From Haloactinospora alba (GTDB lineage Bacteria; Actinomycetota; Actinomycetes; Streptosporangiales; Streptosporangiaceae): a stretch of 64,000 nucleotides of DNA. The position numbers were made by a program, and so were the translations under genes. The stretch is taken from assembly GCF_006717075.1 (NCBI RefSeq), contig NZ_VFQC01000002.1:1-64000 (forward strand), written 5' to 3'. The notes under the pieces were generated by a model, which worked only from the letters and a program-made list of their open reading frames with translations, ran no database searches and was not told the origin of the DNA. Positions 11,466 through 40,756 of this stretch are shown piece after piece (the first letter of the stretch is position 1; the number at the start of each line of letters is the position of its first letter).

Positions 11466-11631
11466 TAGGTCCTGTTTTTGGGCGCTGTTCGTCGCGGGCG
11501 GCGTCTCCGGTACCGCCCCGGCACGGCCGGTCAGGGAGGCGGAGCGGACCCTCCGCCAACCGGCGGGAACACCGCCGGGCGGTGTCCCGGGGCGACGCGC
11601 GGCAGGACAAGCGTCCGAAAAACAGGCCCTA
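11466..11631. repeat. MITE-like 166-bp repeat, copy A
   Basis: The element is bounded by TAGGTCCTGTTTTTGGGCGC at the left and the inverted CGTCCGAAAAACAGGCCCTA at the right, with TA at each end. The right end supplies the TAG stop of the minus-strand ANL gene (11629-11631). An internal short hairpin (CGGAG, six bases, CTCCG type) is conserved in every copy. See copies at 22907, 32704, 39023 and 40591. Confidence 0.8.
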
Positions 11632-13350
11632 GACGGCGGCTGTCTCCGAGGACACGCGTCCGCCGGCGGTGAGCGCCGTCGCGAACCGCTCCCGCAGCCG
11701 GCGTTTGAGCACCTTGCCGGTGGGGCCGGTCGGGAAGTCCTCCGGGCTGCTGGCGACGGTCACACCACGCAGCCGTGCCATCCCCTGGCGGGACAGCGCC
11801 CGGTTGCACGCCGCCAGGAGGTCGCGTGGGGCGTCCACGGGGTCGGCGAGCCGCACAACCGCGAACGGGACGGAGGCCTCCGACTCGGGGTCGTCCACCG
11901 CGAACACCGCGCAGTCGGCGATCCCGGCGCACCCCAGCACCACCTCCTCCATCGGGAGGCTGTAGACCGGGCCGCCGGTGGTGTGGATGACGTCGGGAAC
12001 CCGGTCCACGTGGTACAGCCGCCCCTCGTCGGACCGGTACACGATGTCGCCGGTCAGCCAGTAGCCGGAGAACGACGACTGGACGGTACGCGCGGAGTCG
12101 TTCCAGTAGCCGGGGGTGACGGTGGGGGTACGCACACCGAGGCGGCCGACGTACCCGTCCGGTAGGGTGCGCCCCTCCTCGTCGAGTACGGCCACCTCGT
12201 CGACGACGTCGATGGGGACTCCGACGCAGCGGCCGTAGTCGCCGGTCTCCGGAGCGCTGACCTTGCGGAACAGGGCCATTCCCATCTCGGAGGAGCCGAG
12301 CCCGTCCACGAACCGGGAGCCGGGCAGTTCTCCCCCCTCGCCGTCCGGGCGGCGCCCGTGCCGGACCAGCTCCCGGATGTGCGCCTCGTGGGCGGAGTCG
12401 CCGGTGTTGATCCACGTGTGCACCGCGTCCGCGCCCGCGCCGTCCAGGTCGAGCCCGGCCAGTTCCACGTAGGTCTGGGGGAAGGCGACGACCAGGGTGG
12501 GGTGGAACACGCGCATGGCCTCCCGTACCGCCTCCCCGCCGGTGTCGGCCATCACCCGGGTGGGCAGCCCCAGCAGGGTGGCGGTCATCAGGTAGCTGAT
12601 GCCGGCGGAGTGCGCCTGGGGAAGAGCGGTGAGCAGGCGGTCGCCGTCGGCGGCCTGCGGGAACTCGAGCAGGCGTTCACGCTTGCCGAGGAAGAACTGC
12701 CGGTGCCCGAACATCGCGGCTTTGGGAGCTCCGGTGGTGCCGGAGGTGTGGCAGAGCATCACGGGGTCCTGGTCCGCGTGCGGGTAGGGGAAGAGCGCGG
12801 GCAGCCGGTGTTCGGGGGAGGGAGAGTGCGGCAGCCGGTCCGCCTCGGCCCGGAAACGCGTCGCGCGGGGGAGCGCTCCGCTCTCCTGCAGCGCGGCCAG
12901 GTGGCGGGCAGAGGCGACGGTTCCGACGACGCCGATCCGCGCCATGTAGTCAGCCGCCACACCGGCGGCCATGTTGCCGTTGACCAGGGCCGGTACCGCG
13001 CCCAGCGAGCTGAGGGCGAGGTAGTGCAGGAAGTACCCGATCCCCTCGTCAAGGTAAACCCCCACGGGGTCGCCCTTGCGCACCCCGTTCTCGTGGTACC
13101 AGGCGGCGTAGGCGTCCCGTATCCCGGCGATCCGGTTCAGGCTGAACGGTTCGGGGGCATCGGCGGTGTCACCGCCCGGGGGCGCTGCCCACAGGAAGGG
13201 GGTGTCGGGTGCGGGGTGGAGTTCGAGGACCCGGTCGAGGAACGTGCCCATCCCCAGGCTCTCGTCGTCGAACAGCCGCCTGCGGACCTCCAGCGGGGTT
13301 CCCGCTGACGGCGGGGACGCGTGTACGTGTTGGTGCTGATCGGTGCTCAT
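11629..13350 (-). CDS. ANL superfamily adenylating enzyme (acyl/aryl-CoA ligase-like)
   Basis: At 573 residues this has all ANL core motifs: the P-loop CHTSGTTGAPKAAMFG, A5-like DGLGSSEMG, YWLTGDIVY, YHVDRVPDVIHTTGG, and the C-terminal lysine motif PTGPTGKVLKRRL. ANL enzymes form an acyl-AMP and pass the acyl group to CoA or another nucleophile. Here the likely substrate is 3,4-AHBA or a derivative. A second possibility comes from cremeomycin biosynthesis, where a CoA-ligase homologue (CreL) performs ATP-dependent diazotisation of an aminobenzoate. Sequence alone cannot separate the two. No carrier protein is encoded nearby. The start at 13350 has GGAGGAGGGCTCC in front. The stop codon lies within a repeat end. 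Confidence 0.85.
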   Translation of the reverse strand: MSTDQHQHVHASPPSAGTPLEVRRRLFDDESLGMGTFLDRVLELHPAPDTPFLWAAPPGGDTADAPEPFSLNRIAGIRDAYAAWYHENGVRKGDPVGVYLDEGIGYFLHYLALSSLGAVPALVNGNMAAGVAADYMARIGVVGTVASARHLAALQESGALPRATRFRAEADRLPHSPSPEHRLPALFPYPHADQDPVMLCHTSGTTGAPKAAMFGHRQFFLGKRERLLEFPQAADGDRLLTALPQAHSAGISYLMTATLLGLPTRVMADTGGEAVREAMRVFHPTLVVAFPQTYVELAGLDLDGAGADAVHTWINTGDSAHEAHIRELVRHGRRPDGEGGELPGSRFVDGLGSSEMGMALFRKVSAPETGDYGRCVGVPIDVVDEVAVLDEEGRTLPDGYVGRLGVRTPTVTPGYWNDSARTVQSSFSGYWLTGDIVYRSDEGRLYHVDRVPDVIHTTGGPVYSLPMEEVVLGCAGIADCAVFAVDDPESEASVPFAVVRLADPVDAPRDLLAACNRALSRQGMARLRGVTVASSPEDFPTGPTGKVLKRRLRERFATALTAGGRVSSETAAV

Positions 13351-13488
13351 GGAGCCCTCCTCCGCGAGATTCGGCGATGCCGCGGTACCGCCGCCGGCGC
13401 GGGACCCGGGGGTGGTGCCCGACGGGCGCGCCGGCGGCGGTCTCGGTCACGCACCACCGAGAATGGCGGGGGCGGCCGCGGTGGATCA

Positions 13489-16335
13489 TCACGTGTTCGC
13501 GCTATCGGAGCCCCGGGAGGAGTCGCCGTCCGGAAGCCCGGACACGGGATGACCGCCGTTGGAGAGCACCCAGCGGGTCAGTTCGACCCTGCTGTTCATC
13601 CCGAGCTTGGTGAAGCTGTGCCGCAGGTGGCTGTCCACGGTGTGGGGAGAGAGGTTGAGCTTGTTCGCGACGTCCCGGTTGGTGAGCCCCTCGGCCACCA
13701 GCCGCGCCACACGCAGCTCCGAATCAGTCAGACCGGTGGCGTCGGCGCGTTCCCACTCGGGTTCGGCCGCGCTCTCCGGCTGCGGCACCACCAGCCGCCC
13801 GAGCCGTTCCTCCACCCGGCGCACCCCGCGCCCGGCGTCGCACGACCGGTAACTGGCCAGCGCCGAGCGCAGGTGCTCGGCCGCCGCGGCGCCGTGCCCC
13901 TCCCGCTCCTCGGCCAGGGCCAGGTCCTCCACGGCCACGGCCGTGGCCAGTACCCGCGGACCGCTCCGGTACACCTCCGCGGCGGAGCGGAGCCGCTCCG
14001 TGTCGGTGTACAGCACTCCCTCGGCGTGCAGCGCCGCGGCCACGACCGTCGGCACCTCCGGGTTGCGTTCCCGCAGCTCCCGGGCCGAGCCGGTGACCGC
14101 CTCCGCGAGCCGCTCCTCCCCGGCGGCCAGTGCCATGCCCGCGATGTGCGGCGCGGCCTGCGGGGTCCGGGCCAGCAGGCGGACGCGTGCGTGCCCCGAG
14201 CTCAGGTGCCGGGCCAGCACGGCGGCCCCGTGGTCCGGGTACCCCTCCGCCTCCGCGACCATCGCGGCCGTCCAGGCGAGCTCGGCGCTCGGACGCTGGC
14301 CGGCCTCCACCGCCGTGGACCACGCCTCCTCGGTGTAGGAGCGGCTCGCCGCGACCTCGTCCCGGTGCAGAGCCACCCGCGCCAGGAGTGTCAGCAGCCG
14401 GACCGTCTGCGGTGTGGTGCTCAGCCGTTCCGCGATCCGCGCGCCCATCTCGGCCTCGATCCGGGCCTCCGCGAGCCGTCCCGCGGCCACCCGCAGCTCG
14501 GCCAGGTGGGAGTACCACACCGGCTGCGACCACGCGGTGTCGAACTGTTCGAGGTCGGCCTGGTCGGTGACCAGTGCCTCCTCGGCGTCCTCCAGCCGGT
14601 CGGTGGCGGCCAGCGCCGCGGCCAGCCAGAGCCGGGGGTGCCGGTGGCGGTCCTGGTCGCCCGCCTCGTCGGCGGAGCGCGCCGCCACCGACCCGAACAG
14701 CACGGCGGAGCCCAGCTCGCCCCGCTCCAGGGCCTCCCGGCTCCGCGCCGCGTACCCGCCGACCAGGGACCGGGTGTCCCCGGTACGACGCGCGGAGTCG
14801 ACGGCCTGGCCTGCGGCGACCGCGGCCTCGCCGAGGCCGTCGGGACCGCTCGACTCGTCCAACAGGCCGTGTGCCCGGATCCCCTGCAGCTGCCCCCGTG
14901 TCGTCTCGGAGATGCCCGGGCTGGCGAGCGCCCTGCCCGTGGTCGCGATCATCTCCCGGACGCGGCCGTTCAGGTAGGAGACGTCGGCCAGGGCGAGCAG
15001 GATCTCTCCCCCCTCCTCCGGCGATGCGCCGTCCCGCATGGCCTCCTCTGCGAGCTGCTGGGCCTCCTCCCACCGGCCCGCCGTCGCCAGCAGCCGGATC
15101 GCGTCGGAGACGACCAGGGGCCGGTGCCCGTCCCCGGCGCCCATCCTCCGCAGCATGTACAGGATCAGGTCGGCGGCGGCTCCCGGGGTGGTCGGCCTGT
15201 TCCGTTCCCCTTCCCGGAACAGGGCCACCGCCGTCTCCCCGGTGGCGGCCTTCGCCCCCGGGGACCGGGTCTCACCCGGTTCCGCACCGCGCTGCTGGGA
15301 CAGTGCCTCCGCGGCCTCCTGCAGGGTCGTCCGGACGCCGCGCGCCAACGAGTTGTGCAGGGCCGTCCTGATCAGGTCGTGCCGGAAGGAGAACTCCCGC
15401 CCCTTCTCCACCAGGGCACCCGCCTCCACCGCCTCGTTGAGGGCGGGCAGGATGTCGATGGGCGGTTGGCCGACCAGACCGGCGGCCTCGGCCACGGTGA
15501 AGGGGCGGTCCAGCACGGAGCCGGCCTGGAGCAGCCACCGGGTGTTCTCCGACAGGCCGGACAGCAGCTGTTCGGCCTCCGGAAGCAGCTCCGGGGAGAG
15601 TTCCGCGTCCCCGAGGACCGCCACACCGTTGTCGATCCCCACGAGGCCGTTGTCGCGCAGCGACCGCACCAGTTCCTTCACCAGGAACGGGTTCCCGCCG
15701 CTGCGTGCGGTGAGTTCCCGCAGCCTGCGGTCGGGTTCCGAGCCGACCAGTGTGGTGAGCAGCCCGACCGTCTCGGTGTCGGACAGCGGGTCGAGGGAGA
15801 CGAGTCGGGCCTCCTCGCGGACCAGCCAGTCGAGGGTCCGTTGCGCGTATCCCGGTGACTTGCCGGGGCGTCGGGCGAAAACCCACAGAACGGGCGCCGG
15901 CCTCAGCTCCGAGACGAGAACGCGCATGGCGAGTGCGGTGATCTTGTCCGCCCACTGCGCGTCGTCGAGCAGAATGACCACGGGGTTGTCACGGGCGAGC
16001 GTGGAGATCCGCTCCCTGAGACTCTCGACGACGCGCAGCCCGTCCTCCTCCGCGCCCCTCCGTCCGAACCGGTGCGCGGCGCACGGGAACCCGCGCAGGG
16101 TGGCCATCGGCATGAGGTGGTCGAGCTCAGTGGCGGCCGCGGAGAGCACGGGGACGTCCTGCCGCACGGCGTGCTCCCGCACCTCCCCGAGCAGCCAGGT
16201 CTTGCCGAGACCGGTGTCGCCCTCGACGACGACGCATCCCCCCGTCCCGTCCCGCAGCGCGTCAACCTCCCGGAACAGGTCGTCCAGAATCTCCCTTCTC
16301 CCGTTCAGCGTCCTCCGAGGCGCGTGCTCCATCAT
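13489..16335 (-). CDS. LAL-type (large ATP-binding LuxR) transcriptional regulator 1
   Basis: The 948-residue regulator carries Walker A GDTGLGKT at 39-46, Walker B with LLDDAQWAD at 122-130, a long TPR-like middle region, and a C-terminal LuxR helix-turn-helix (about 869-925, LTDSELRVARLVAEGLTN and LSPHTVDSHLRHSF). LAL proteins usually activate the gene cluster they sit in. It is colinear with the regulator at 33365-36175: Walker A and B fall at the same residue numbers, so the two are paralogues. ATG codons at 16335 and 16332 are adjacent, after GGGGGACACGC. The upstream AT-rich region holds a perfect 22-bp palindrome. Confidence 0.92.
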   Translation of the reverse strand: MMEHAPRRTLNGRREILDDLFREVDALRDGTGGCVVVEGDTGLGKTWLLGEVREHAVRQDVPVLSAAATELDHLMPMATLRGFPCAAHRFGRRGAEEDGLRVVESLRERISTLARDNPVVILLDDAQWADKITALAMRVLVSELRPAPVLWVFARRPGKSPGYAQRTLDWLVREEARLVSLDPLSDTETVGLLTTLVGSEPDRRLRELTARSGGNPFLVKELVRSLRDNGLVGIDNGVAVLGDAELSPELLPEAEQLLSGLSENTRWLLQAGSVLDRPFTVAEAAGLVGQPPIDILPALNEAVEAGALVEKGREFSFRHDLIRTALHNSLARGVRTTLQEAAEALSQQRGAEPGETRSPGAKAATGETAVALFREGERNRPTTPGAAADLILYMLRRMGAGDGHRPLVVSDAIRLLATAGRWEEAQQLAEEAMRDGASPEEGGEILLALADVSYLNGRVREMIATTGRALASPGISETTRGQLQGIRAHGLLDESSGPDGLGEAAVAAGQAVDSARRTGDTRSLVGGYAARSREALERGELGSAVLFGSVAARSADEAGDQDRHRHPRLWLAAALAATDRLEDAEEALVTDQADLEQFDTAWSQPVWYSHLAELRVAAGRLAEARIEAEMGARIAERLSTTPQTVRLLTLLARVALHRDEVAASRSYTEEAWSTAVEAGQRPSAELAWTAAMVAEAEGYPDHGAAVLARHLSSGHARVRLLARTPQAAPHIAGMALAAGEERLAEAVTGSARELRERNPEVPTVVAAALHAEGVLYTDTERLRSAAEVYRSGPRVLATAVAVEDLALAEEREGHGAAAAEHLRSALASYRSCDAGRGVRRVEERLGRLVVPQPESAAEPEWERADATGLTDSELRVARLVAEGLTNRDVANKLNLSPHTVDSHLRHSFTKLGMNSRVELTRWVLSNGGHPVSGLPDGDSSRGSDSANT

Positions 16336-16563
16336 GCGTGTCCCCCTGATATAGCACTGCGGTCGGCGCGGACGCCCGGACCGGCCCACCCGGGTTTCCC
16401 CGGCTCCGCGGGGTCACGTTCCACGGTGCGGCCGAATTCGAGCAGAGCGCGCCGGAACGGAGGAAAACAGCTTCGACCCTGTCGAACAATTCACGGTTCG
16501 GTGTTCCCCCGTCTCACATCAGAAACGAAAACATCATATATATGATCTTTCTTTGTGATAAGA

Positions 16564-17016: not shown

Positions 17017-17027
17017 AGGAACCGTCC

Positions 17028-18302: not shown

Positions 18303-18971
18303 ATGCCAGCACGGGGACGGCCACGCGAGTTCGACAGGGGCGCAGCCCTGCGCGCGGCGATGGAACTCTTCTGGAAACGCGGGTACGAGGGAACGTCGCT
18401 CAGCGCGCTCACCGACGCCATGGGCATCACGCGCAAGAGCCTCTACGCCGCGTTCGACTCCAAGGAGGCGCTCTTCCGCGAGGCGGTCGAGCTGTACAAC
18501 TCCGCAGACGGCGGCACCGCGAACGGTCCCCTCGACACCACCGCCACCGCCCGGGACGCGGTCGAGGGCATGCTGCGGGAGAACGCCGACGCCTACGTCG
18601 ACCCGCACACCCCGCGGGGGTGCATGGTGGTGCTGGCCGGCCTCAACCTGACGGAAGCGCACGAGACCGTCGGCGAGCACCTCGCCGAGCTGCGGCGCCG
18701 GGACCACGAGGCGGTCCTCGCGCGGCTGGAGCGCGGCGTCGCCGAGGGCGACCTCCCCCAGGAAACGGACACGACGGCCCTCGCCTCCTACTACCTGACC
18801 GTGCTGCAGGGACTGTCGATCCAGGCTCGGGACGGGTGCACCCGCGCGACGGCGCACGCCGTCATCGACTGCGCGATGGCGGCGTGGGACGCGCTGGTCT
18901 CCCCCGAGCACCGGCCCTCGTCCACAACCACCCGGCCCGGTCCGCCACAACCTCCACCGAACAGGCCCTAA
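18303..18971 (+). CDS. TetR family transcriptional regulator
   Basis: This 222-residue regulator has the N-terminal helix-turn-helix (about 10-55, GYEGTSLSALTDAMGIT, KSLYAAFDSKEALF) and a C-terminal TetR_C domain with RGCMVVLAGLN. It belongs to the branch often next to SDR or oxidoreductase genes. The ATG at 18303 follows GAGGAGCGCC. It is divergent from the SDR gene and probably represses it and itself. Its last codons overlap the cupin stop on the other strand, and the DNA there (GAACAGGCCCTA) looks like the end of the 166-bp repeat family. Confidence 0.88.
   Translation: MPARGRPREFDRGAALRAAMELFWKRGYEGTSLSALTDAMGITRKSLYAAFDSKEALFREAVELYNSADGGTANGPLDTTATARDAVEGMLRENADAYVDPHTPRGCMVVLAGLNLTEAHETVGEHLAELRRRDHEAVLARLERGVAEGDLPQETDTTALASYYLTVLQGLSIQARDGCTRATAHAVIDCAMAAWDALVSPEHRPSSTTTRPGPPQPPPNRP
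18954..18970. repeat. Half-end of the 166-bp repeat family
   Basis: Read on the minus strand this is TAGGGCCTGTTCGGTGG, close to the ends of copy A (TAGGGCCTGTTTTTCGG) and copy B (TAGGACCTGCTCGGTGG). As in those copies, the TAG is the stop codon of a minus-strand gene, here the cupin. No second end is visible nearby. Confidence 0.45.
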
Positions 18972-19462
18972 ACCGACTCGATGCCGTACCGCTCCTCCGC
19001 CACGCGCATGGAGCGCGCGATCTCGGCCGGGGACTGCTCCGCCGCGGGCGCCTGCCCCCGCACCGCCTCCGTTCCCACCTCCAGGAAGAACTCCTCGAAC
19101 CCGCTCGGCGAGAACAGCATCAGGATGCGCGCCGGCCGGTCGGAGACGTTGGTGAACCGGTGCGCGGAACCGCGGGGCAGCAGCAGGAAGCACCCCGCCT
19201 CCGCGGTGAACGCCCGGTCGGCGTCCACGATCTCCAGCGTCCCGTCGAGGAGGTAGAACATCTCGTCCTCGTTGTGGTGGATGTGCAGCGGCGGACCGTT
19301 CCCCGGCGGGATCTCGGCCTCCATCACCCCGAGAGCGCCCCGGGTGTCCCCGGTCCCGGCCTTCAGGGTGTAGCGGTCCCCGCCGAAAGCCCACACGCTC
19401 GGCCCCGCGCCCGGCGCGACGTACATCGCCCGGTCGCGACCGTCTCGGTCGGACGTTCCCAA
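18968..19462 (-). CDS. Cupin-domain protein
   Basis: The 164-residue single-domain cupin carries the two conserved motifs: PPLHIHHNEDEMFYLLDG (metal-binding His, His and Glu) and LPRGSAHRFTNVSD. It could be a dioxygenase, isomerase or binding protein; such small cupins are common in aromatic pathways. I choose the TTG at 19462, because AGGAGG lies six bases upstream, whereas the ATG at 19426 has no ribosome site. Its stop overlaps the convergent TetR gene by three bases. Confidence 0.8.
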   Translation of the reverse strand: MGTSDRDGRDRAMYVAPGAGPSVWAFGGDRYTLKAGTGDTRGALGVMEAEIPPGNGPPLHIHHNEDEMFYLLDGTLEIVDADRAFTAEAGCFLLLPRGSAHRFTNVSDRPARILMLFSPSGFEEFFLEVGTEAVRGQAPAAEQSPAEIARSMRVAEERYGIESV

Positions 19463-19867
19463 CTCGTTCCTCCTCCGCCTCGGCCGCCCCTGCGGCGGCT
19501 GCCCGCGGCCATGCTCCCCGCCGGCCCCCCGCCCGACCATCCCGAGAACCAGCGATCCAAAGCACGGATCCGGGGGCGGTACGGAACGGGAGGACTCCCG
19601 TACCGCCCCCGGCCGCGTTCCCGCAGCGCGCGGCGGGACGCCGCGCCCCGCGGCACGGAGCGGCTCCCGGGGTTACCGCACGCACCGGAACCCAAACGTG
19701 CGGTCCGAATCTGGCGTGAACACGCCATACCTCCCCGCTCTCCCCAGCCGCCACGATGAGCAGCACGCCCCGGAGGCGCCACGCCCCGTCCCCCCGGCGC
19801 CCCGCGGGGCCAGTGACACGTGAGACACCCCTGCCCCGGCGGGCAGGGCACACCCGGAAGGTTGCCG
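19463..19867. promoter_or_regulatory. Divergent control region with a long hairpin and two dyads
   Basis: The gap of 405 bases separates the divergent cupin and oxidase genes. A perfect 15-bp stem (19570-19584 with 19598-19612, 13-base loop) could act as attenuator in the oxidase leader or insulate the two promoters. Further on are CCGCACG/CGTGCGG (19676-19682, 19697-19703) and TGGCGTGAACACGCCA at 19712-19727, a good operator candidate. No gene is seen. Confidence 0.5.
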
Positions 19868-22906: not shown

Positions 22907-23074
22907 TGGGTCCTGTTCGACGGGCGCTTGTCCTGCCACCCGCCGTCGCTCCGGTGCCGCGGCGGCGGTGTTCTCGTCAGTCGGCGGAGGGTCCGCTCCG
23001 CCCCCTTCCTCGGCATCGCCGGCGCGGCTTGCCGCGCCGGTCGTGACGCACAGCGTTCCACCGAGCAGGTCCTA
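22907..23074. repeat. MITE-like repeat, diverged copy B
   Basis: This copy is less similar than the others but keeps the end GGTCCTGTTCGACGGGCGC, GCTTGTCCTGCC, the core GGCGGAGGGTCCGCTCCGCC, and the far end AGCAGGTCCTA. Its right end supplies the TAG stop of the nitrate reductase gene. The ribosome site of the flavoprotein gene sits at its left border. Confidence 0.6.
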
Positions 23075-25144
23075 GTCGTCGGGAACCGGGTCCAGCCGGA
23101 CCGCTGTAGCCTTGAACCCGGGCATACGGCTGGTCGGGTCGAGCGCGGCGGAGCCGGTGAGGTTGTTCGCCGCCGCCTCACCGCCGTAGTGGAACGGGAG
23201 GAACACGGTGTCGCGGCGCGCCCCGGGGCGCAGCCGGACCCTGGCCAGCGCGGTGCCGACGGGCGACGTGACGCGGGCCCACTGCCCCTCACCCAGCCCG
23301 TTGCGCGCAGCGGTGTCGGGGTGCACCTCCACCCGCGCCTCGGGTTCGGCCTCGGCCAGTTCGGCCACCCGGCGGGTCTGCGCCCCGGACTGGTAGTGGC
23401 CCATGAGCCGGCCGGTCGTGGCGATCAGCGGGTAGTCACCCCCGGTTTCCGCCACCGGGTCCCGGTACTCCACCGGGGAGAAACGCGCGCGGCCGTCGGG
23501 GTGGGCGAACCGGTCGAGGAACAGTCGCGGTGTAGGAGGGGCGCCGCTGGGCACGGGCCAGTGCAGTTCCTCCCCGTCGGACAGCCGCTCGGGGGTGGCA
23601 CCGGAGTAGTCGGCCGGCGCACCCGCCGTGGCGTCGCGCAGTTCGGCCAGGACCGTGTCCGGGTCGGAGGGGAAGCGGTGGGCGGGCTGCCCCAGGCGCT
23701 CGGCGATCCCCCGCAGGACCTCGAGGTCGCTGCGTACGCCCGCGGGTGGGAGGGTCGCGGCGCGGCGGCGCAGCACCCGGCCCTCGAGGCTGGTCATGGT
23801 GCCGTCCTCCTCCGCCCACTGGGTCACGGGAAGGACCACGTCGGCCAGGGCGGCGGTCTCCGACAGCACGAAGTCGGCCACGACCAGCAGGTCCAGCGCG
23901 GCGAGGCGTTCCCGGACGCGGGCGGAGTCCGGCGCGGACACGGCCGGGTTGGCGCCGAACAGCACCATCGCGCGCGAGCCGTGTTCCGTGCCCAGGGAGT
24001 TCAGCAGCTCGGTCGCGCTGGGTCCGGCTCCCGGAAGTGTCTGCGCGTCCACGCCCCACGCGTCGGCGACGCGCGCGCGGGCGTCGGGGTCGTCGATACG
24101 GCGGTAGCCGGGCAGCTGGTCGGCCTTCTGGCCGTGCTCCCGGCCGCCCTGGCCGTTGCCCTGCCCGGTGATGCAGCCGTAGCCCGAACCGGGCCGTCCC
24201 GGCAGGCCCAGCGCCAGCGCCAGGTTGATCCACGCCGAGGTGGAGTCGGTGCCGGTGACGTGCTGTTCTGTGCCGCGGCCGGTGAGGACGTAGGCGCGGG
24301 AGGCGGTGCCGAGCTGGTGCGCGACGGCGCGGATCTGACGGGCGGGAACCCCGGTGACGCGTTCGGTGCGTTCCGGCCACCACACGGTCGCCTGTTCCCA
24401 TGCCCCGTCGAAGCCCGTGGTGCGGTCGGCGATGTAGTCCGTGTCCAGCATCCCCTGGCCGCGGGCCGTGTGCAGCAGTCCCAGCGCCAGCGCGAGGTCG
24501 GTCCCGGGGCGGGGGGCCACGTGGGTCCCGCCGTGTTCCAGGGCGTGCTCGGCGGTGGCGGTGCGGCGCGGGTCGACGACGACCAGCCGCGGTGCGGTGA
24601 GGTGGCCCATCATCGGCGGCATCGTCTCGGCCGGGTTCGCCCCGGCCAGCAGCACCGTGTCCGCCCCGCCGAGGTCGCTCAGTGGGAACGGCAAACCCCG
24701 GTCCAGACCGAACGCCCGCGTTCCGGCGGCGGCGGCCGAGGACATGCAGAACCGGCCGTTGTAGTCGATCCGGGAGGTGCCCAGCGCCAGCCGGGCGAAC
24801 TTCCCCAACAGGTAGGCCTTCTCGTTGGTGAGCCCGCCGCCGCCGAACACCGCCACGGTGTCGTTCCCGTGCCGCTCCCGCAGCCGCAGGAGGCGACCGG
24901 CCACGTGGTCCAGGGCGGTGTCCCAGTCCACCTCGCGGAATCCGCCGCCGCGGCCCGTACGCAGCAGCGGCGCGGTGATCCGGTCCGGGGTGGACAGCAG
25001 TTCCGCGGACGTCCACCCCTTGCGGCACAGCCCGCCCCGGTTGGTGGGGAAGTCCGCGGGCCGCACGGTGAGCTTCCCGTCCGCCCCCGGTTCCAGGTGC
25101 ATGGCGCACTGCAGCGCGCAGTAGGGGCAGTGCGTGGCGGTCAT
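23072..25144 (-). CDS. nasA: Assimilatory-type molybdopterin nitrate reductase
   Basis: The protein has 690 residues. The N-terminal [4Fe-4S] ligands are C6, C9, C13 and C40 (CPYCALQC and RGGLC). C133 in NGRFCMSSA is the expected molybdenum ligand of the NasA/NarB group. Further marks are WINLALALGLPG, TGQGNGQGGREHGQK (typical of nitrate reductases), and a C-terminal molybdopterin dinucleotide-binding domain (TTGRLMGHYQSGAQTRR). The enzyme reduces nitrate to nitrite in the cytoplasm. Neither a siroheme nitrite reductase nor a nitrate transporter is encoded in the window. There is no Tat signal. The start at 25144 has only a distant GGGAAG. Confidence 0.87.
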   Translation of the reverse strand: MTATHCPYCALQCAMHLEPGADGKLTVRPADFPTNRGGLCRKGWTSAELLSTPDRITAPLLRTGRGGGFREVDWDTALDHVAGRLLRLRERHGNDTVAVFGGGGLTNEKAYLLGKFARLALGTSRIDYNGRFCMSSAAAAGTRAFGLDRGLPFPLSDLGGADTVLLAGANPAETMPPMMGHLTAPRLVVVDPRRTATAEHALEHGGTHVAPRPGTDLALALGLLHTARGQGMLDTDYIADRTTGFDGAWEQATVWWPERTERVTGVPARQIRAVAHQLGTASRAYVLTGRGTEQHVTGTDSTSAWINLALALGLPGRPGSGYGCITGQGNGQGGREHGQKADQLPGYRRIDDPDARARVADAWGVDAQTLPGAGPSATELLNSLGTEHGSRAMVLFGANPAVSAPDSARVRERLAALDLLVVADFVLSETAALADVVLPVTQWAEEDGTMTSLEGRVLRRRAATLPPAGVRSDLEVLRGIAERLGQPAHRFPSDPDTVLAELRDATAGAPADYSGATPERLSDGEELHWPVPSGAPPTPRLFLDRFAHPDGRARFSPVEYRDPVAETGGDYPLIATTGRLMGHYQSGAQTRRVAELAEAEPEARVEVHPDTAARNGLGEGQWARVTSPVGTALARVRLRPGARRDTVFLPFHYGGEAAANNLTGSAALDPTSRMPGFKATAVRLDPVPDD

Positions 25145-25328
25145 GGCGACACCGGCTTCCCGCGGCGGGCCGCCGGCGGCACGGCGCCCGCCGGCGGCGG
25201 TGTCGCGGGGGGCGGGCCGGGCGGGTACGCCGCCCCCGGCCCCACGCGCAACGACATTGCGGACCACCTCCAGACGGGTTCCGCGCCGGGTGCCGGGCGC
25301 CGGTGTCCGCCGTCCGGCGCCCGTGTTC

Positions 25329-26204
25329 CTACCATCCGTCCCGACCGTCGGCCGGGGGCCATATCCCGTGGCGCGGGCGCCATCCCAACTCCCGCAGCAC
25401 CGCGCCGCTGTCGACACGCTGCGACGGCAGGTCCGGTGCCGCGTCCCGGTCGTGTTCCGGCGGCGGGCACCCTGTGCGCCGGGCCAGTTCGGTGAGGTAC
25501 TCACCCGTGGTCACGGGCGTGTCGGAGACGTTGAGGACGCGGCCCGCCGCATCCCCTTCCAGCGCCGCGAGCACGGCCCTGGCGTAGTCGGCGACATGGA
25601 CCATCGAGACGTAGGATCCCCCGTCCCCGGGAATGCGCATCTCCCCCCGCGCCAGCAGCTCCCGCTGGGTATCCTGCACGGTCCCCGAACCGGCGAACCG
25701 GGAGCCGCGCAGCACGGTCCACGCCAGCTCGGAGGGGGAGACAGCGCCCAGGGTGGACTCCAGCTCGGCGACGGGCCCCACCACGGCCCGCCGGGCGGGG
25801 TCCGGGTCGAGGGGGGTGTCCTCGGTCAGCCACGTGTCGCCCCCGTCGGGATAGGCCATCGTGATGCTCATCTGCACCAGGCGACGGACTCCCGCCGCCC
25901 GCGCCGCCGTGACGAGGCGGGACGTGCCCTCGCCGCGGATGCGGGAGGTCTCCCGCCACGCCCCGGGAGCCGCGGGGTTCCGGGGCATGCTCGTCGCGAG
26001 GTTGACCACGGCGTCGTCGCCCGCGATCAGCTCCTCCAGCCGGATGTGGTCGTCCAGCAGGCCACCGCGTACCCGTGCCACCTCCGGCGGCAGTGCCTCC
26101 AGCCGGTCGGGGGCCAGCACCGTGACCCGGTGCCCGCGCTCCACCAGCATCGGCACCAGCGCGCCTCCCAGTACTCCGGTCGCTCCCACCGCGAATACCC
26201 GCAT
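25329..26204 (-). CDS. NAD(P)-dependent epimerase/dehydratase-like protein
   Basis: The 291-residue extended SDR begins with the cofactor motif VGATGVLGGALV. It goes on with VVNLATSMPRN and SITMAYPDGG, where the Tyr of the usual YxxxK is not followed by a clear Lys, so it may be an atypical SDR. The C-terminal part (VLNVSDTPVTTGEYLTELARRTG) is that of NAD-dependent epimerases. It is the third gene of a minus-strand run behind the amine oxidase and NmrA genes, 44 bases after the latter. GAGGAAGGCGGGT precedes the ATG at 26204. The substrate is unknown. Confidence 0.8.
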   Translation of the reverse strand: MRVFAVGATGVLGGALVPMLVERGHRVTVLAPDRLEALPPEVARVRGGLLDDHIRLEELIAGDDAVVNLATSMPRNPAAPGAWRETSRIRGEGTSRLVTAARAAGVRRLVQMSITMAYPDGGDTWLTEDTPLDPDPARRAVVGPVAELESTLGAVSPSELAWTVLRGSRFAGSGTVQDTQRELLARGEMRIPGDGGSYVSMVHVADYARAVLAALEGDAAGRVLNVSDTPVTTGEYLTELARRTGCPPPEHDRDAAPDLPSQRVDSGAVLRELGWRPRHGIWPPADGRDGW

Positions 26205-30762: not shown

Positions 30763-31286
30763 TGGCACCCGCCACCGGGCACACGGCGAGCCCCGACATC
30801 GACACGCGGCTCTTCCGGCGGACGATGGGGCGCTTCGCCAGCGGCGTCACCGTCGTGGCCACCCACGGCGCGGAGGGGGTGCACGCGATGACGGCGAACG
30901 GTTTCCTGTCCGTGTCGCTGGATCCGCCGCTCGTCCTGGTCTCGCTGGGGCGCCGCACCCGCATGGCCGCCACGCTGGACGAGTCGGGCCACTACGGGGT
31001 CAGCGTCCTCGCGGAACACCAGGAGGCCTACTCCCGCCTCTTCGCGGGACAGCCCACCGTCGACGTGCGGCCGGAGTTCACCGAGGCCGACGGCATCCCC
31101 CTGCTCGGCGGGGCTCTCGCGCACGTCGGATGCCGCATCGCGGAACGGGTGGAGGCCGGTGACCACGTCCTGTACCTCGGCCGGGTCGAGTACCTCGACT
31201 CCGGGGAGGGCGACCCCCTCGTCTTCTACACGGGGGGCTACCGGGTCCTGCACGCGACCGCCAGCGACGAGATATTCACCCACTGA
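30762..31286 (+). CDS. StyB-like flavin reductase
   Basis: The protein of 174 residues is a flavin:NAD(P)H reductase-domain protein: FASGVTVVATHGAEGVHAMTANGFLSVSLDPPLVLVSL, with GRRTRMA and a late FYTGGYRVL. It should supply FADH2 to the monooxygenase whose TGA it overlaps (TGATG). The tight coupling supports a 1:1 two-component system. It lies 28 bases before the second BBE oxidase gene, so all three genes are probably one transcript under the TetR operator. Confidence 0.9.
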   Translation: MAPATGHTASPDIDTRLFRRTMGRFASGVTVVATHGAEGVHAMTANGFLSVSLDPPLVLVSLGRRTRMAATLDESGHYGVSVLAEHQEAYSRLFAGQPTVDVRPEFTEADGIPLLGGALAHVGCRIAERVEAGDHVLYLGRVEYLDSGEGDPLVFYTGGYRVLHATASDEIFTH

Positions 31287-31314
31287 GACACGGACACGAA
31301 GGGAACACGACCCT

Positions 31315-32706
31315 GTGGCTACGTCACCTGCGGAACTCGGCAACACGATGGAACGGCTACTCACCCATGTCCGCGGAAACGTACTCCTGCCCGAGGACGA
31401 CGGTTACGCGGCGGCGTGCTCGGGCCACAACACCACGGTGGAGCACCGGCCCAAGGTCGCGGTCGTCGCCGACAACCCCGGGGACGTGCGGGAGGCCGTG
31501 CGTTTCGCGCGGCACAACGGGCTTCCCGTGGCCGTGCGGGCGACCGGACACGGCCCCGCCGCACCCGCGGACGGGGCCGTCCTGGTCAACACCAGCCGCC
31601 TGAACGAGGTTCGGATCGACCCGCACGCCCGCACCGCGCGGGTCGAGGCGGGCGCGCGGTGGGAGCAGGTCATCACCGCCGCCGCCGAGTTCGGACTGGC
31701 TCCGCCGAGCGGATCGTCGGCGACCGTCGGCGCGGTCGGCTACACCCTGGGCGGCGGAATCGGCCCGCTGGGACGCTCCTACGGGTACGCCGCCGACCAC
31801 GTCCACTCGCTGGAGCTCGTCACCGCGGACGGCGCCGCCCGCACCGCCTCCGCCGCGCAGAACCCCGACCTGTTCTGGGCCCTGCGGGGCGGCAAGGGCA
31901 ACTTCGGGGTGGTGACGTCGATGACCATCAACCTGTTCCCCGTGTCCCGCCTCTACGGCGGCGGCCTGTTCTTCCCGGGGGAGGAGGCGGAGACGCTGCT
32001 GCGCACCTACCGGGAGTGGACGGCGACCCTGCCCGTCGAGATGGCCTCCGCCCTCGCTCTCGTCCGGTTCCCCGACGCCGAGGGGGTTCCCGACGAGATC
32101 CGGGGGAGGTTCGCGGTACACGCCCGCATCGCCTACCTCGGCACCGAGGAGGAGGGGAGGAAGCTGCTGGAGCCGATACGCCGGGCCGCCCCCCTCCTCA
32201 TGGACACGGTGGCCGACATGCCGTTCACCTCGGTCGCCACGATCAACAACGACCCGACCACTCCGGGCCCCTACATCGAACGTTCCACGGTGCTGGACGA
32301 CCTGACCCCGCCGGCGATCGAACGGGTGCTGTCCTGGGCCGGACCCGGCACCGACTGCCCCCTGGTCGCGGTGGAGCTGCGCCACCTCGGCGGCGCGCTG
32401 TCCCACGCGCCGGCCGGGGGCAACGCGGTCTCCAACCGGGACAGGGCGTTCACCGTCTTCGCCGTGGCCGTGCCCGAGCCGGACGGGGAGACCGTGCGGA
32501 ACTACCAGGACGGGATGATCACCGACCTGGCTCCCTACGGTTCGGGCGGCCCCTTCCTGAGCTTCCTGTCCAGCAGCGAGACCGACACCGAACTGGTGCG
32601 CTCGGCCTACGACCCCTCGGTCTACCAACGGCTGGCGGAGGTCAAACGCACCCACGATCCGGACAACACGTTCCGGAAAACGCACAACATCCCGCCCGCC
32701 CGCTAG
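31315..32706 (+). CDS. Berberine-bridge-type FAD oxidase, monocovalent
   Basis: The 463-residue protein has the PCMH FAD domain with H79 in RATGHGPAAP for histidyl-FAD. The place of the second, cysteine link is taken by Ser (S135 in PPSGSSATVGAVGYTLGGGIG), unlike the oxidase at 19868. The C-terminus (LAEVKRTHDPDNTFRKTHNI) is the BBE end. The start is GTG 31315 after GAAGGGA; an ATG at 31348 has no ribosome site. It probably is co-transcribed with the two-component monooxygenase. The TAG stop is the first three bases of repeat copy C. Confidence 0.87.
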   Translation: MATSPAELGNTMERLLTHVRGNVLLPEDDGYAAACSGHNTTVEHRPKVAVVADNPGDVREAVRFARHNGLPVAVRATGHGPAAPADGAVLVNTSRLNEVRIDPHARTARVEAGARWEQVITAAAEFGLAPPSGSSATVGAVGYTLGGGIGPLGRSYGYAADHVHSLELVTADGAARTASAAQNPDLFWALRGGKGNFGVVTSMTINLFPVSRLYGGGLFFPGEEAETLLRTYREWTATLPVEMASALALVRFPDAEGVPDEIRGRFAVHARIAYLGTEEEGRKLLEPIRRAAPLLMDTVADMPFTSVATINNDPTTPGPYIERSTVLDDLTPPAIERVLSWAGPGTDCPLVAVELRHLGGALSHAPAGGNAVSNRDRAFTVFAVAVPEPDGETVRNYQDGMITDLAPYGSGGPFLSFLSSSETDTELVRSAYDPSVYQRLAEVKRTHDPDNTFRKTHNIPPAR

Positions 32707-32867
32707 GTCCTGTTTTCGGACGCTGTTCGTCGCGAGCGGCGTCTCCGGTGCCGCCCGGCACGGCCGGCCAGGGAGGCGGAGCGGACCCTCCGCCGACCGG
32801 CGGGAACGCCGCCGGTCGGTGCGCCGGGGCGGCGCGCAGCAGGACAAGCGTCCGAAAACAGGACCCA
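32704..32867. repeat. MITE-like repeat, copy C (164 bp)
   Basis: It begins TAGGTCCTGTTTTCGGACGC, giving the stop codon of the plus-strand oxidase, and ends GTCCGAAAACAGGACCCA, so the right-hand TA has decayed to CA. Orientation is as copy A. Confidence 0.8.
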
Positions 32868-36175: not shown

Positions 36176-36281
36176 CTCCCGTCCCGCCGCTCCCGGGGTG
36201 CCGCGACGCCCCGGGACCACGGACGCGCCCGAACAACCCACCGCCTGCCCCACGAAACGAAACGACACGACAGGAGTGCCC

Positions 36282-37319: not shown

Positions 37320-37340
37320 CCCCGGCCGGGGAGGACACAC

Positions 37341-37371
37341 GCCGGGGGCCGGGCAACGCCCGGCCCCCGGC
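37341..37371. terminator. Bidirectional terminator
   Basis: Perfect 14-bp stem (37341-37354 with 37358-37371) and an AAC loop, between convergent methyltransferase and wrbA genes. Confidence 0.85.
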
Positions 37372-37424
37372 TGCTGTGCTGCTCCGTCCCTAACCGCGCC
37401 CGGGACGCGGGGTGCGGGAACGTG

Positions 37425-38030
37425 TCACTGCGCGCCCCGGAGGAACCGCGCGGCGACCTCTGCCACCCGGGTCCCCTGGTAGTTGGCCACGGCCAGCTCC
37501 TCCTTGCTGGGGTTCTTCTCCCGGTGGGTGCTGCTCGCCCCGTAGGGGTTGCCGCCGGCCGCCGAGACCGCCTCGTTCGTGTAGCCGAGGGGGACGATGA
37601 TGGACCCCCAGTGCATGAACACGTGGTACATGCTCGTGATCGTGGTCTCCTGCCCGCCGTGGGCCTCGTCGGAGCTGGTGAAACCGCTGACGATCTTGTC
37701 CGCGAGCTTGCCCTCGAACCAGAGGCCGCCGGTTGTGTCCAGGAACTGCTTCAGCTGGGACGAGATGTTGCCGTAGCGGGTGGGCGAGCCGAACACGTAG
37801 GCGTCGGCCCACAGCAGGTCGTCCAGCTCGGCCTCGGGGATGTGCGTGGTGGCCTGCTGGTGTTCGTACCAGTCCGGCTCGTTCTCGATCACGCTCTGGG
37901 GGGCCAACTCCTGCGCGCGGCGCAGCCGCACCTCGGCCCCGGCCTGCCGCGCACCGTCCTCGACCTCGCGCGCGAGCTGGTGGACGTGCCCGGTCGAGCT
38001 GTAGTAGATGACCGCGACTTTCACTGACAT
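37425..38030 (-). CDS. wrbA: WrbA-type NAD(P)H:quinone oxidoreductase
   Basis: The 201-residue flavodoxin-like protein has the FMN phosphate loop YYSSTGHVHQLA (9-20), FGSPTRYGNISSQLKQFLD, and TGGLWFEGKLADKIVSGFTSS, all WrbA marks. WrbA reduces quinones by two electrons and avoids semiquinones. In this setting it may protect the producer against, or reduce, a quinone-type intermediate derived from the aminophenol (inference). It is on the minus strand downstream of the DsbA-like gene, 102 bases away, and could be co-transcribed with it. Confidence 0.9.
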   Translation of the reverse strand: MSVKVAVIYYSSTGHVHQLAREVEDGARQAGAEVRLRRAQELAPQSVIENEPDWYEHQQATTHIPEAELDDLLWADAYVFGSPTRYGNISSQLKQFLDTTGGLWFEGKLADKIVSGFTSSDEAHGGQETTITSMYHVFMHWGSIIVPLGYTNEAVSAAGGNPYGASSTHREKNPSKEELAVANYQGTRVAEVAARFLRGAQ

Positions 38031-38132
38031 GGGAACTCCTCGCCGTAACCGGCTCGAATCCGAGCCGTCGTTTCGCAGGGGTGGACGGGTTGTCCGGAGG
38101 GTCTCCGACCTCCGGCGGGTGCGCGCCGGCGG

Positions 38133-38816
38133 CTAACCGAGCGCGCGGGGAAGGAGGGAGTCGTAGATCTCCGGGGTGTCCCGGTCGATCACCGGGAACC
38201 CGACACCGACGCCGCCCTCCCAGTGCAGTTCGATCCCGGGGTTGTGCACCGGGGGGCCACCGTCCGGGAAGAAGAGGGTGGGGCTTCCCTGCACGGCCTC
38301 GCCCCGGCACAGCGGGACCTGTTCCTCGATGTAGGGCCGGGCCGTCCCGTGGACGAGCCCGTACCGGACCGCGTCCACGTCCAGCTCGCAGGAGCCGGCG
38401 ACAGCGAGGACCTCGTGCCGCATCGCTATGTTCCGGCTCTCCCCGAAGAACGCGCGGCGGAGGGCGCGGTCGAAGCCCGAGCTCGCTTCGAGCCCCTGAG
38501 CCTTGGCGACCTCGACCGCTTCCATCGCCGGAACGGTGGTGACCGGATAGTCGTGCGCCGGCCCCTGCCACATCTGCCATCCCGCTTCCGGCTCCGTTCC
38601 GCCGGCGACCGGGGTCTCCGCGTCCAGGATCAGCTTGGGTGTGGCCATGTCGTTGATCAGTTCCAGGGGGAAGGGACGGATGTCGAACCGCACCGTCTCC
38701 TGCATGCCCAAGCGGTGACGCGCCGCGTACAGCCGGTGGAGCGCGACGTGCGCCCACGGACAGCCGAGGTCGCCGTACATGACGATGGTTCCCGGAGCCA
38801 CGTCGACGGGTGCCAT
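38133..38816 (-). CDS. DsbA-superfamily protein (FrnE/HCCA-isomerase-like)
   Basis: The 227-residue thioredoxin-fold protein has an inserted helical domain. The active-site region is GDLGCPWAHVALHRL, that is CPWA: the first cysteine (C19) is present but the second is missing. It is therefore probably not a disulfide oxidase; it may be a glutathione/mycothiol-dependent isomerase or transferase of the HCCA-isomerase kind. QGSPTLFFPDGG contains the expected cis-Pro region. GGAGG stands five bases before ATG 38816. A site resembling the TetR operator lies at 38881-38900, tying it to the monooxygenase operon. Confidence 0.78.
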   Translation of the reverse strand: MAPVDVAPGTIVMYGDLGCPWAHVALHRLYAARHRLGMQETVRFDIRPFPLELINDMATPKLILDAETPVAGGTEPEAGWQMWQGPAHDYPVTTVPAMEAVEVAKAQGLEASSGFDRALRRAFFGESRNIAMRHEVLAVAGSCELDVDAVRYGLVHGTARPYIEEQVPLCRGEAVQGSPTLFFPDGGPPVHNPGIELHWEGGVGVGFPVIDRDTPEIYDSLLPRALG

Positions 38817-38880
38817 GGAAGCCTCCAACCTCACGTTCAACTCCACCGAGGGCACGCGCCCCCGCTCACCTCCAGAGCAT

Positions 38881-38900
38881 AAACGGAAGAGATTCCGGAT
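38881..38900. promoter_or_regulatory. TetR-type operator, site 2 (degenerate)
   Basis: AAACGGAAGAGATTCCGGAT keeps the whole left arm and central AG of the palindrome at 29382-29401; six of nine right-arm bases agree. It lies 65-84 bases upstream of the DsbA-like start. Confidence 0.55.
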
Positions 38901-39022
38901 GCAATGCCCAGAGCTCCGCCCCTCGGACACGTCCCCCGTCACACAAACGTCGGGTGGCGGGAAGGGAGCTGGTTCCGCTCCCCTACCCGCCACCCGAACG
39001 CCGCGGTAGCCGAGCTACGGCT

Positions 39023-39188
39023 GAGGTCCTGCTTTTCGGACGCTTGCCCTGCTGCGCGTCGCCCCGGCACACCGCCCGGCGGCGTTCCCGCCGGTCGACG
39101 GAGGGTCCGCTCCGCCTCCCTGGCCGGCCGTGCCGGGCGGCACCGGAGACGCCGCTCGCGACGAACAGCGCCCAAAAAACAGGACCTA
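39023..39188. repeat. MITE-like repeat, copy D (166 bp)
   Basis: Inverted relative to copies A and C. It begins GAGGTCCTGCTTTTCGGACGC and ends GCGCCCAAAAAACAGGACCTA. The final CTA is, on the minus strand, the TAG stop of the VOC gene. Confidence 0.85.
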
Positions 39189-39566
39189 AGAGGGCTGCCC
39201 CTCGTAGATCGTGATCCGGTACCCGTCGGGGTCCTCGAAGATGAACTCGCGCCCGCAGGAGCCGTCACACAACGGCTTGACGATGGGCACGTCGTGCTCC
39301 GCGAGCTTCGCGGCGACCTTGTCCGGGTCCTCCGCCTTGATCCAGATCACCACGCCCCACGCGACCTTCGACACGGCGTCGAGATCGTCCGTAGCCTGGC
39401 GCAGAGCCACCTTGATCGGCTCGCTCCCCAGGACAGCGGCGTTGGGCACCTTCGTCGGGACCGTGTGGAAACCGACGATGTCCGTGTAGAACCGGCGGGA
39501 CCGTTCGAGGTCCCGCACCTGCAGGGTGAGGAAGTCCGGACCGACCACGTTCACGTTCTCCGACAT
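39186..39566 (-). CDS. VOC (glyoxalase/dioxygenase superfamily) protein
   Basis: This 126-residue single-domain VOC protein begins with VNVVGPDFLTLQVRDLERSRRFYTDIVGF and ends with REFIFEDPDGYRITIYEG, the paired beta-alpha-beta modules of the superfamily. Such proteins bind or modify small molecules: drug-binding resistance proteins, isomerases, dioxygenases. Here it may be a self-resistance protein, but that is a guess. AAGGAGACGCTCGC precedes the ATG at 39566. The stop codon is formed by repeat copy D. Confidence 0.85.
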   Translation of the reverse strand: MSENVNVVGPDFLTLQVRDLERSRRFYTDIVGFHTVPTKVPNAAVLGSEPIKVALRQATDDLDAVSKVAWGVVIWIKAEDPDKVAAKLAEHDVPIVKPLCDGSCGREFIFEDPDGYRITIYEGQPS

Positions 39567-39727
39567 GCGAGCGTCTCCTTCGTGGTGTTGTGACAACAAC
39601 GCGCGAACCGCTGGTCTCCACGCCACCGGCGGGAACCAGCTTCCTCCACCATGGCCGCCGTGACATCACGTCTTCGCGCGATTCCCGCACGAGCGGCCTC
39701 CGCGCCGGTCGGGGAACGCCGCAGAGG

Positions 39728-40543
39728 TCAGGGTTTGACCGCCACGCCGGCGTACTCGTCCACTGGCCAGACGGCGTCCGCCGAGGCCGGTTCGGGACGC
39801 CACAGCGGGCAGGACACGAGCCCCGGCTCCACCAGCTCCCAGCCGGCGAACAAGGCGGTGATCTCCTCGGGGGTGCGCACCGTGATGGCGGGGGTTCCCC
39901 GCTCGTTCCACACGCGCGCCACCTCGTGAGCGCGCTCCGGAGCGACCACGTCCGTGGGGTGCGAGATCACCAGGTAGCTCCCGGAGACGAGCTCTCCGGA
40001 CAGGTGGTCGAGCACCCGGCGCGCCTCGTGGTCGTCGTCCAGGAAGTTGACCACCCCCAGCAGCATCAGCGCCACCGGTCGCGAAAGGTCCAGGGTGCGC
40101 GCGGCCTGTCGCAGCACCCGCCGCGGGTCGCGCAGGTCCGCGTCGACGTAGTCGGTGGCGCCCTCCCCACTGCTGGTGAGCAACGCCCGCGCGTGGGTGA
40201 GGACCAGCGGGTCGTTGTCCACGTAGACCACCCGGGACTCGGGGGCGAGCGCCTGGGCGACCTCGTGCGTATTGTCCGCGGTGGGCAGCCCGGTACCGAT
40301 GTCCAGGAACCGGCGCACACCGGCCTCCGCCACGAGGTAGCGCACCGCGCGGCCCAGGAACGCCCGGTCCGCCCGGGCGTTGTCCACGATCTCGGGGTAG
40401 AGGTGCCGGATGCTGTCTCCCAGCTCCCGGTCGGCGGGATAATTCTCCTTCCCGCCGAGCCAGTGGTTCCACACGCGGGCGTTGTGCGCCACCTCCGGAT
40501 CAACTCGGCCGGCGGCTCCGGTGTCGGGGGTGGGATCCTCCAT
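39728..40543 (-). CDS. SAM-dependent methyltransferase of the DUF574 type
   Basis: At 271 residues this matches the actinomycete DUF574/Methyltransf_19 family: NHWLGGKENYPADRELGD, RAFLGRAVRYLVAEAGVRRFLDIGTGLPTADNTHEVAQ, VVYVDNDPLVLTHARALL, and a late PLWRPE. The biochemical role of this family is not settled; several members sit in antibiotic clusters or near signalling genes. AAGGA lies seven bases before the ATG at 40543. Repeat copy E starts 48 bases upstream. Confidence 0.88.
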   Translation of the reverse strand: MEDPTPDTGAAGRVDPEVAHNARVWNHWLGGKENYPADRELGDSIRHLYPEIVDNARADRAFLGRAVRYLVAEAGVRRFLDIGTGLPTADNTHEVAQALAPESRVVYVDNDPLVLTHARALLTSSGEGATDYVDADLRDPRRVLRQAARTLDLSRPVALMLLGVVNFLDDDHEARRVLDHLSGELVSGSYLVISHPTDVVAPERAHEVARVWNERGTPAITVRTPEEITALFAGWELVEPGLVSCPLWRPEPASADAVWPVDEYAGVAVKP

Positions 40544-40590
40544 CACAGCGTCCTTCCCGGTTCGAACGGCCTCCACGATGGCGCTGAGCC

Positions 40591-40756
40591 TAGGTCCTGT
40601 TTTTCGGACGCTTGTCCTGTTGCGCGCCGCCCCAGGACACCGCCCGGCGGCGTTCCCGCCGGTCGACGGAGGGTCCGCTCCGCCTCCCTGGCCGGCCGTG
40701 CCGGACGGCACCGGAGACGCCGCTCGCGACGAACAGCGCCCAAAAAACAGGACCTA
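40591..40756. repeat. MITE-like repeat, copy E (166 bp)
   Basis: The best-preserved copy: TAGGTCCTGTTTTTCGGACG at the left, GCGCCCAAAAAACAGGACCTA-type end at the right, TA on both sides, flanked by C and G. Same orientation as D. Unlike the other copies it does not touch a stop codon. Confidence 0.88.

Follow-up and report, generated by a model that had tools for sequence, protein, structure and literature searches.

The window analysed here is a stretch of 64,000 nucleotides of Haloactinospora alba (contig NZ_VFQC01000002.1, positions 1 to 64,000), belonging to contig 2 of the four contigs of the 4.94-Mb genome. It contains five copies, A to E, of a repeat of 164-168 bp, four of which lie directly at the end of a gene (Table 1). 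The best copies have the ends TAGGTCCTGTTTTTCGG...CCGAAAAACAGGACCTA in inverted orientation, and copies A and C are oriented opposite to B, D and E. A profile built from the five copies found only A-E at full length in the window, besides second-strand matches at the same places, and a later structured model returned the same five (E 9e-31 to 3e-16) plus three weak rows (E 0.5-0.9). The copies and the inverted ends described in an earlier reading of the same DNA, made from the letters alone (the original prediction), are confirmed. The TAG stops of the ANL enzyme, nitrate reductase, BBE oxidase and VOC protein are, as it had proposed, exactly the edge TAGs of A, B, C and D. A half-end was credited with the stop of a cupin gene in the same way; this remnant of about 20 bp, which reads TAGGGCCTGTTCGGTGG from 18970, does supply the TAG, and neither the profile nor the structured model found an element behind it.

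Table 1 Repeat copies and end remnant in the window
Feature	Position	Strand	Contact with neighbouring gene
Copy A, full element	11466..11631	-	right edge is the TAG stop (11629-11631, minus) of the ANL (AMP-binding) enzyme gene 11629-13350
Copy B, older diverged copy	22907..23074	+	right edge is the TAG stop (23072-23074, minus) of the molybdopterin oxidoreductase (nitrate-reductase-type) gene 23072-25504
Copy C	32704..32867	-	left edge is the TAG stop (32704-32706, plus) of the BBE oxidase gene 31159-32706
Copy D	39023..39188	+	right edge is the TAG stop (39186-39188, minus) of the VOC/glyoxalase-fold gene 39186-39626
Copy E, reference copy for the genome search	40591..40756	+	without stop contact
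End remnant TAGGGCCTGTTCGGTGG...	18950..18970	-	its TAG (18968-18970) is the stop of the cupin gene 18968-19540

Searching the whole genome with copy E, as the original prediction had proposed, gave 40 scored places among 252 candidates. Short second-strand rows aside, these are 82-100% identical to E, most of them at 90-96% and others diverged. A 27-copy profile gave 129 rows, corresponding to about 109 distinct places on three of the four contigs after 18 second-strand rows were set aside and two split matches merged, with E down to 7e-45. The earlier statement that all copies lie in a specialised-metabolism region thus holds inside the window and not genome-wide. Given these identities and the full-length profile matches, a chance origin of the family is excluded. 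Since most copies are close to E and others diverged, amplification appears to have been both recent and long-running. The profile search scored the best 150 of 11,836 first-look candidates, so that the number of copies may be underestimated, and chance may account for its weakest rows. Flanks were examined at 91 loci (30 from the copy E search, 60 of the 78 further profile places, and copy B); the other 18 places have E 6e-7 or worse. Stop contact was scanned in 90 distinct copies, and the main counts below refer to the 60 with a score of at least 60. Genes were called from codon usage trained on 23 open reading frames of the window rather than taken from annotation, and the same training was applied to G311, a genome from another family of the class.

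Target site and stop codons

Both flanking TA dinucleotides are intact in 20 of the 60 copies, and the NTAN targets reconstructed from these are CTAG (11), CTAA (4), CTAC (3) and GTAA (2). The outer bases can differ between the two ends of a copy, which fits a 2-bp (TA) duplication, with an element proper that starts with G and ends with C. The preferred target is CTAG. In 310 kb of non-element DNA this motif accounts for 60 of 3262 TA sites, or 55 of 1424 outside called coding frames, giving binomial tails for the enrichment of 1e-14 and 3e-11, respectively. By arithmetic from the window composition (GC 0.72), CTAG is about 13-fold rarer than expected (60 seen against some 780), and the 60 unoccupied sites comprise 11 at called gene stops, 5 within coding frames and 44 elsewhere.

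Empty sites in relatives, which the original prediction had suggested looking for, were found at two places (in G127, and in congeners of G311 and G293). At the first, G079 carries a 221-bp member at C-TA[GGGCG...CGCCC]TA-G, while its congener G127 is empty and reads ...CGCG CTAG GCGGGC..., with a 9-bp insertion or deletion just to the left. The neighbouring protein ends in GADSRVAQTRREPA, followed by a TAG stop, in both genomes. A single CTAG that was already the TAG stop of a gene is thus turned into C-TA[G...C]TA-G on insertion.

The second site, flanked by a CorA gene and a convergent YflT-domain gene, was compared in 12 genomes of one genus. G311 and G293 are filled with a 165-bp member. 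In nine more the two flanks are joined, each time with CTAG, and G284, the twelfth, had no joined match. In seven of the 12 (G367, G327, G275, G256, G221, G350 and G189) both genes have their TAG stops in a single CTAG. In G206 the stop of the left gene comes 8 bases sooner, and in G266 (L397) about 29 bp, TAGGGAGTCTCCACGAGACACCCCTGG, look like a remnant of two fused element ends, the TAG of which is the stop of the left gene. The two proteins end in RLSLQTGTGTVS (left) and YVNFKRRDWL (right), identically in G311, G293 and the nearest empty genome, G367. The filled and empty alleles bear out two claims of the original prediction: that insertion at a stop leaves a working TAG and, together with the intact-TA copies, that TA is duplicated by an element starting with G.

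In 25 of the 60 copies of the H. alba genome (27 of 120 edges), an edge coincides exactly with the TAG stop of an adjacent coding frame, and the number of copies rises to 29 when a 1-bp shift or TAA is allowed. For all 90 copies (88 loci), the corresponding numbers are 33 and 39 loci. Among 54 stops called between 400 bp outside and 200 bp inside the edges, 28 fall at distance 0 (27 TAG and one TAA), the next commonest position being -1 with three. The contacted frames include an EngA-type GTPase, an ectoine synthase, an acyl-CoA dehydrogenase and a B12-binding protein, and two copies (L029 and L096) each serve the stops of two convergent genes at once. We considered 30 stop-contact frames, of which 28 have a Pfam match; the 60 copies have 31 such edges, exact or shifted by 1 bp, from which that of copy B was left out. 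In 10 of the 30 the last domain is complete to the final 3 profile positions and ends at most 10 residues from the TAG, indicating that at least these frames are not truncated.

Stop contact is likewise common in G311, where it is exact in 15 of 30 copies, four of them on both sides, so that the genome-wide occurrence foreseen in the original prediction extends to a second genome. Relatives of the element also occur on Streptomyces plasmids (eight records with L336 as query, and one plasmid with L335). In three of four regions examined from the eight records, a deposited coding sequence ends on the TAG of the element (a D-alanyl-D-alanine carboxypeptidase, a hypothetical protein and a CBS-domain protein); in the fourth it does not.

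Copies of the element coincide with stops more often than unoccupied CTAG sites do (25/60 against 11/60, p 0.009, about threefold in odds). The 31 youngest copies behave similarly (13/31, p 0.02), as do the copies of H. alba and G311 pooled (40/90 against 17/79, p 0.002). Stop contact is therefore mainly a consequence of the CTAG preference, and the modest remaining excess could be due to selection against harmful insertions. The proposed harmless steering of the element to gene ends stands in part: most of it is accounted for by CTAG itself. Any better survival of TA at stop edges was left out of the evidence, since such edges are by definition TA. Convergent neighbour pairs exceed the control (16 of 60 copies against 43 of 538). 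A strong general bias of young copies towards gene 3' ends was also considered and rejected, the edge counts being near control; in a further control of 14 non-coding CTAG sites, 11 of 28 edges face a gene 3' end.

As a separate observation, five copies read tGAGG instead of TAGG at an edge, which gives TGA (the left edge of L002, window positions 39022-39025, as well as L026, L092, L363 and L370). The called stop of the adjacent frame is this TGA in L092, L363 and L370, as if one stop had replaced another.

Hairpin and spread through the class

In other genera, members are also close to 165 bp long and retain the core (CTGCTGCGCG, GCGTTGTCGTCGGTCG, CTCCTCGGCCTTGCGA and variants), whereas their inner arms differ, both arms changing together. 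Three single copies were folded and each gave an end-to-end hairpin (z -5.1, -9.4 and -6.8). In an alignment of 35 chosen members, double changes occur in 22 of 32 consensus pairs, in the arms as well as in the internal core helices. The covariation score of 0.438 exceeds that of shuffled alignments (0.190, with 0 of 500 as high) and the values obtained when the structure was slid (at most 0.108); the stem structure was predicted on the same alignment as was scored, and relatedness can inflate such scores. The covariation of arms and core would reflect either selection acting on the folded single strand or one arm serving to correct the other.

A related pattern was seen at the second empty site, where the G311 and G293 copies show five differences, four of which form two compensated pairs, within surroundings that are 95.7% identical over 3.2 kb. 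Arm-by-arm correction, conversion from another copy, two independent insertions or selection could each account for these pairs; another copy in G293 has the same model score as the copy at this site.

With the structured model, members were found in 66 of 296 genomes and 22 of 115 genera of the class (stricter filter, 9 candidates scored per genome), and a separate search found them in 25 of 150 genomes and 12 of 68 genera (stricter filter, 19 candidates per genome). Copy E had no match in plasmid and phage collections, and L335 had none among phages. A scan of ten loci against Rfam 15 left the element unmatched, its sole match being a cobalamin riboswitch outside the element (L351:361-430), about 1 kb from a class member.

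Variants of the element were also observed. In G311, three internally deleted derivatives of 84-95 bp (L383, L385 and L386) keep both ends, and L383 and L385 still supply stops. A deleted copy in the H. alba genome (C3:233690-233737) adjoins a younger one at a common TA. One genus (genomes G079, G127 and G106) has a longer subfamily with an extra internal stretch (L176, L192, L194 and L171), of which L176 measures 221 bp.

Probable transposase partner and origin of the stop contact

The genome of H. alba has 11 matches to PF13340 (IS4/5-type), from which nine stretches were taken. Two resident insertion sequences (ISs), IS-a and IS-b, have ends that begin TAGGTCCTGTTT or TAGGGCCTGTTT and lie at CTAG. 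IS-a (1037 bp, four copies 99.5-100% identical) has the left end TAGGTCCTGTTTAAGAAGTCCGGCTTGTCCTGCT (TAGGTCCTGTTT...GCTTGTCCTGCT) and the right end TAGGCCGTGTTT, and its open frame of 321 codons matches the IS5 family transposase NF033580 (1e-72) as well as PF13340 and PF01609. IS-b (1035 bp, four copies 99.8-100% identical) has TAGGGCCTGTTTGG at both ends. Across the eight copies, the left edge is CTAG in seven and TTAG in one, and the right edge is CTAG in all. The left end of IS-a shares 12 identical terminal bases and a further block with the element. IS-a is thus an autonomous element of the kind that the original prediction had suggested seeking in the same genome, although its match is partial. 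At L315, IS-a and the end of a family member share one CTAG, and at L028 a young copy shares its TA with an apparent old deleted copy, as expected if the ends of the element themselves offer CTAG.

Paired TAGGnnnTGT ends 800-1500 bp apart flank 7 of 30 PF13340 loci from the own and related genomes (L311 being doubtful), against none of 30 for the reversed pattern. L289, in G024, starts with TAGGGCGTGTTTTATGGAT, the first 19 bases of which are those of members L176 and L194 of G079. Mobilisation by IS5-family elements, through the transposase of the resident ISs, is most likely, and these ISs would belong to the IS427 group. Of 11 rows for that group in Table 2 of PMC3281130, ten have repeats of 2 bp. 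At L318 the transposase of IS-b is spread over more than one reading frame; the passages of PMC3281130 cited here report the same for many IS427-group elements.

We therefore consider the family to be a non-autonomous transposable element of about 165 bp, of the type known as a miniature inverted-repeat transposable element (MITE), with terminal bases matching IS5-family ISs, apparently of the IS427 kind, and assign this reading a probability of about 0.86. The family combines terminal inverted repeats with direct target duplication, is multi-copy, and has filled and empty alleles, both empty sites coming from relatives and none from the window's own genome. The element targets CTAG by preference and is flanked by a duplicated TA. 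At the two sister-species empty sites this CTAG is an existing TAG stop, at one of them the common stop of two convergent genes; on insertion the TA copy and the first G of the element re-create TAG, and the proteins keep their ends. Since CTAG is rare in this 72% GC genome (60 in 310 kb) and seldom lies in coding frames (5 of 60), the target preference itself would keep most insertions out of genes, and selection would remove the remaining harmful ones. The transposase of resident IS5-type elements would move the element.

Several observations weigh against this account. As for the partner, the whole arms of IS-a and the element differ, the right end of IS-a being TAGGCCGTGTTT, only L315 among the eight IS copies examined clearly supplies a stop, and movement by an IS5-type transposase is something we infer. 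As for stop contact, 35 of the 60 copies have no exact contact, and the excess over unoccupied CTAG is not significant in G311 (15/30 against 6/19, p 0.25). Young copies face gene 3' ends at 28 of 62 edges, near the control of 415 of 1029 edges of non-coding TA sites with a called neighbour. Two stop-contact genes end 2 and 4 codons later than their orthologues, so that the contacted TAG is not always the ancestral stop. At the second empty site the bases beyond TA are T and A in the filled species (G311:C1:5130358-5130522, and G293) but C and G in the empty ones; if T and A preceded the insertion, the element changed the TAA stops of both genes to TAG. The number of pair types in the hairpin alignment is only slightly above that of shuffled ones (51 against 47.2, with 28 of 500 as high). 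Finally, no empty site was found for copies of the window's own genome, its genus being represented by one genome and the one orthologous pair having unalignable 3' flanks. The nearest named orthologues of the acyl-CoA dehydrogenase are those of Allosalinactinospora lopnorensis (87%) and Nocardiopsis halophila (84%); no element was found at these loci, where the 3' flanks do not align. The site of L190 in G060 likewise yielded no empty counterpart, synteny being broken in the other three genomes of its genus.

The explanation in the original prediction was largely correct except for the transposon family, which it gave as IS630/Tc1. TA duplication and a TA/CTAG preference would fit a MITE derived from IS630/Tc1-mariner elements, TA duplication being an IS630 trait, and three loci of the genome match PF13358 (IS630-type). 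However, the two longer of these end in TACTGAGGTTTTCG and TAGTGTGTTGATTGG and the third has no recognisable ends; the terminal bases and CTAG edges of the element are instead shared by the IS5-family ISs, and paired ends occur at some of the PF13340 loci. An IS630-type partner was rejected on these grounds, and such an origin is very improbable. Random insertion at TA, with selection leaving harmless copies and stop-touching ones among them, would account for the threefold odds of stop contact over unoccupied CTAG, but it cannot yield 11 CTAG among 20 targets when 55 of 1424 TA sites outside coding frames have this form. We regard it as quite unlikely, and selection probably acts on top of the CTAG preference.

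The very stable full-length fold, the covariation in internal helices and the position of TAG at the base of the hairpin in copies that contact a stop would all suit a domesticated 3' regulatory RNA or a bidirectional terminator that selection holds at gene ends, its mobile origin being secondary. Against such a role stand the many copies away from stops, the orientation of young-copy neighbours, which is near control, and the absence of an Rfam match of the element in the ten loci scanned. The idea that the repeat is a portable terminator finds no support in its canonical form either, as no short GC hairpin followed by a T-run was found between window positions 38900 and 40900, around copies D and E. 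A primarily regulatory element is thus unlikely, if somewhat less so than random insertion. More speculatively, and as a possibility that we hold only tentatively, the MITE-type family may be one ancient non-autonomous lineage running through the whole class. The hairpin would then be its working part, serving mobility as a folded single strand or as a host 3' end, arms evolving in concert would let it switch between IS5-type transposases, and the G after TA would permit a costless life on stops.

Comparison with known systems

The element answers, at the level of sequence, the question of how genomes that are compact and GC-rich can hold many copies of a small transposon: its rare palindromic target is often a stop, and its first base restores that stop. 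In this way two convergent genes can even be separated without changing the end of either protein. MITEs are usually regarded as short-lived, and the present data point by contrast to a class-wide lineage of this type. Annotation of gene ends and studies of 3' untranslated regions in actinomycetes should take the element into account.

The element is of a known kind, a MITE; what is new is its occurrence through the class with a length and core that are conserved and a hairpin that covaries over its full length. No paper came up when six core sequences were used as literature queries, and searches of open-licence papers gave no description of the family or of a comparable stop-preserving insertion. 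Correia/NEMIS, ERIC and RUP elements are palindromic MITE-like repeats of 100-170 bp at TA as well, belonging to other phyla and with partners of other families.

The closest likeness is to ISs of the IS5 family, IS427 group, which share the terminal bases (TAGGTCCTGTTT, TAGGGCCTGTTT), TA at both ends, CTAG edges and, in the tabulated part of PMC3281130, 2-bp repeats. Unlike them, the element lacks a transposase, measures about 165 bp and has a conserved hairpin core; its likeness to IS-a, judged by eye, stops after some 30 bp. QMITE2 is described, in the passage concerned, as altering the end of a Coxiella gene. MITEPsy1 of Pseudomonas syringae is, in the passages of PMC3189936 cited here, also a small IS5-like MITE inserting at CTAG or YTAA. 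It differs in its length of 100 bp, a reported 4-nt duplication and few copies, and those passages contain no link to host stop codons. In ISLxc2 and ISLxx4 of the IS481 family, as far as the cited part of PMC2516522 describes them, a stop codon likewise lies within the duplicated NCTAGN target, but this stop is that of the transposase itself and not of a host gene.

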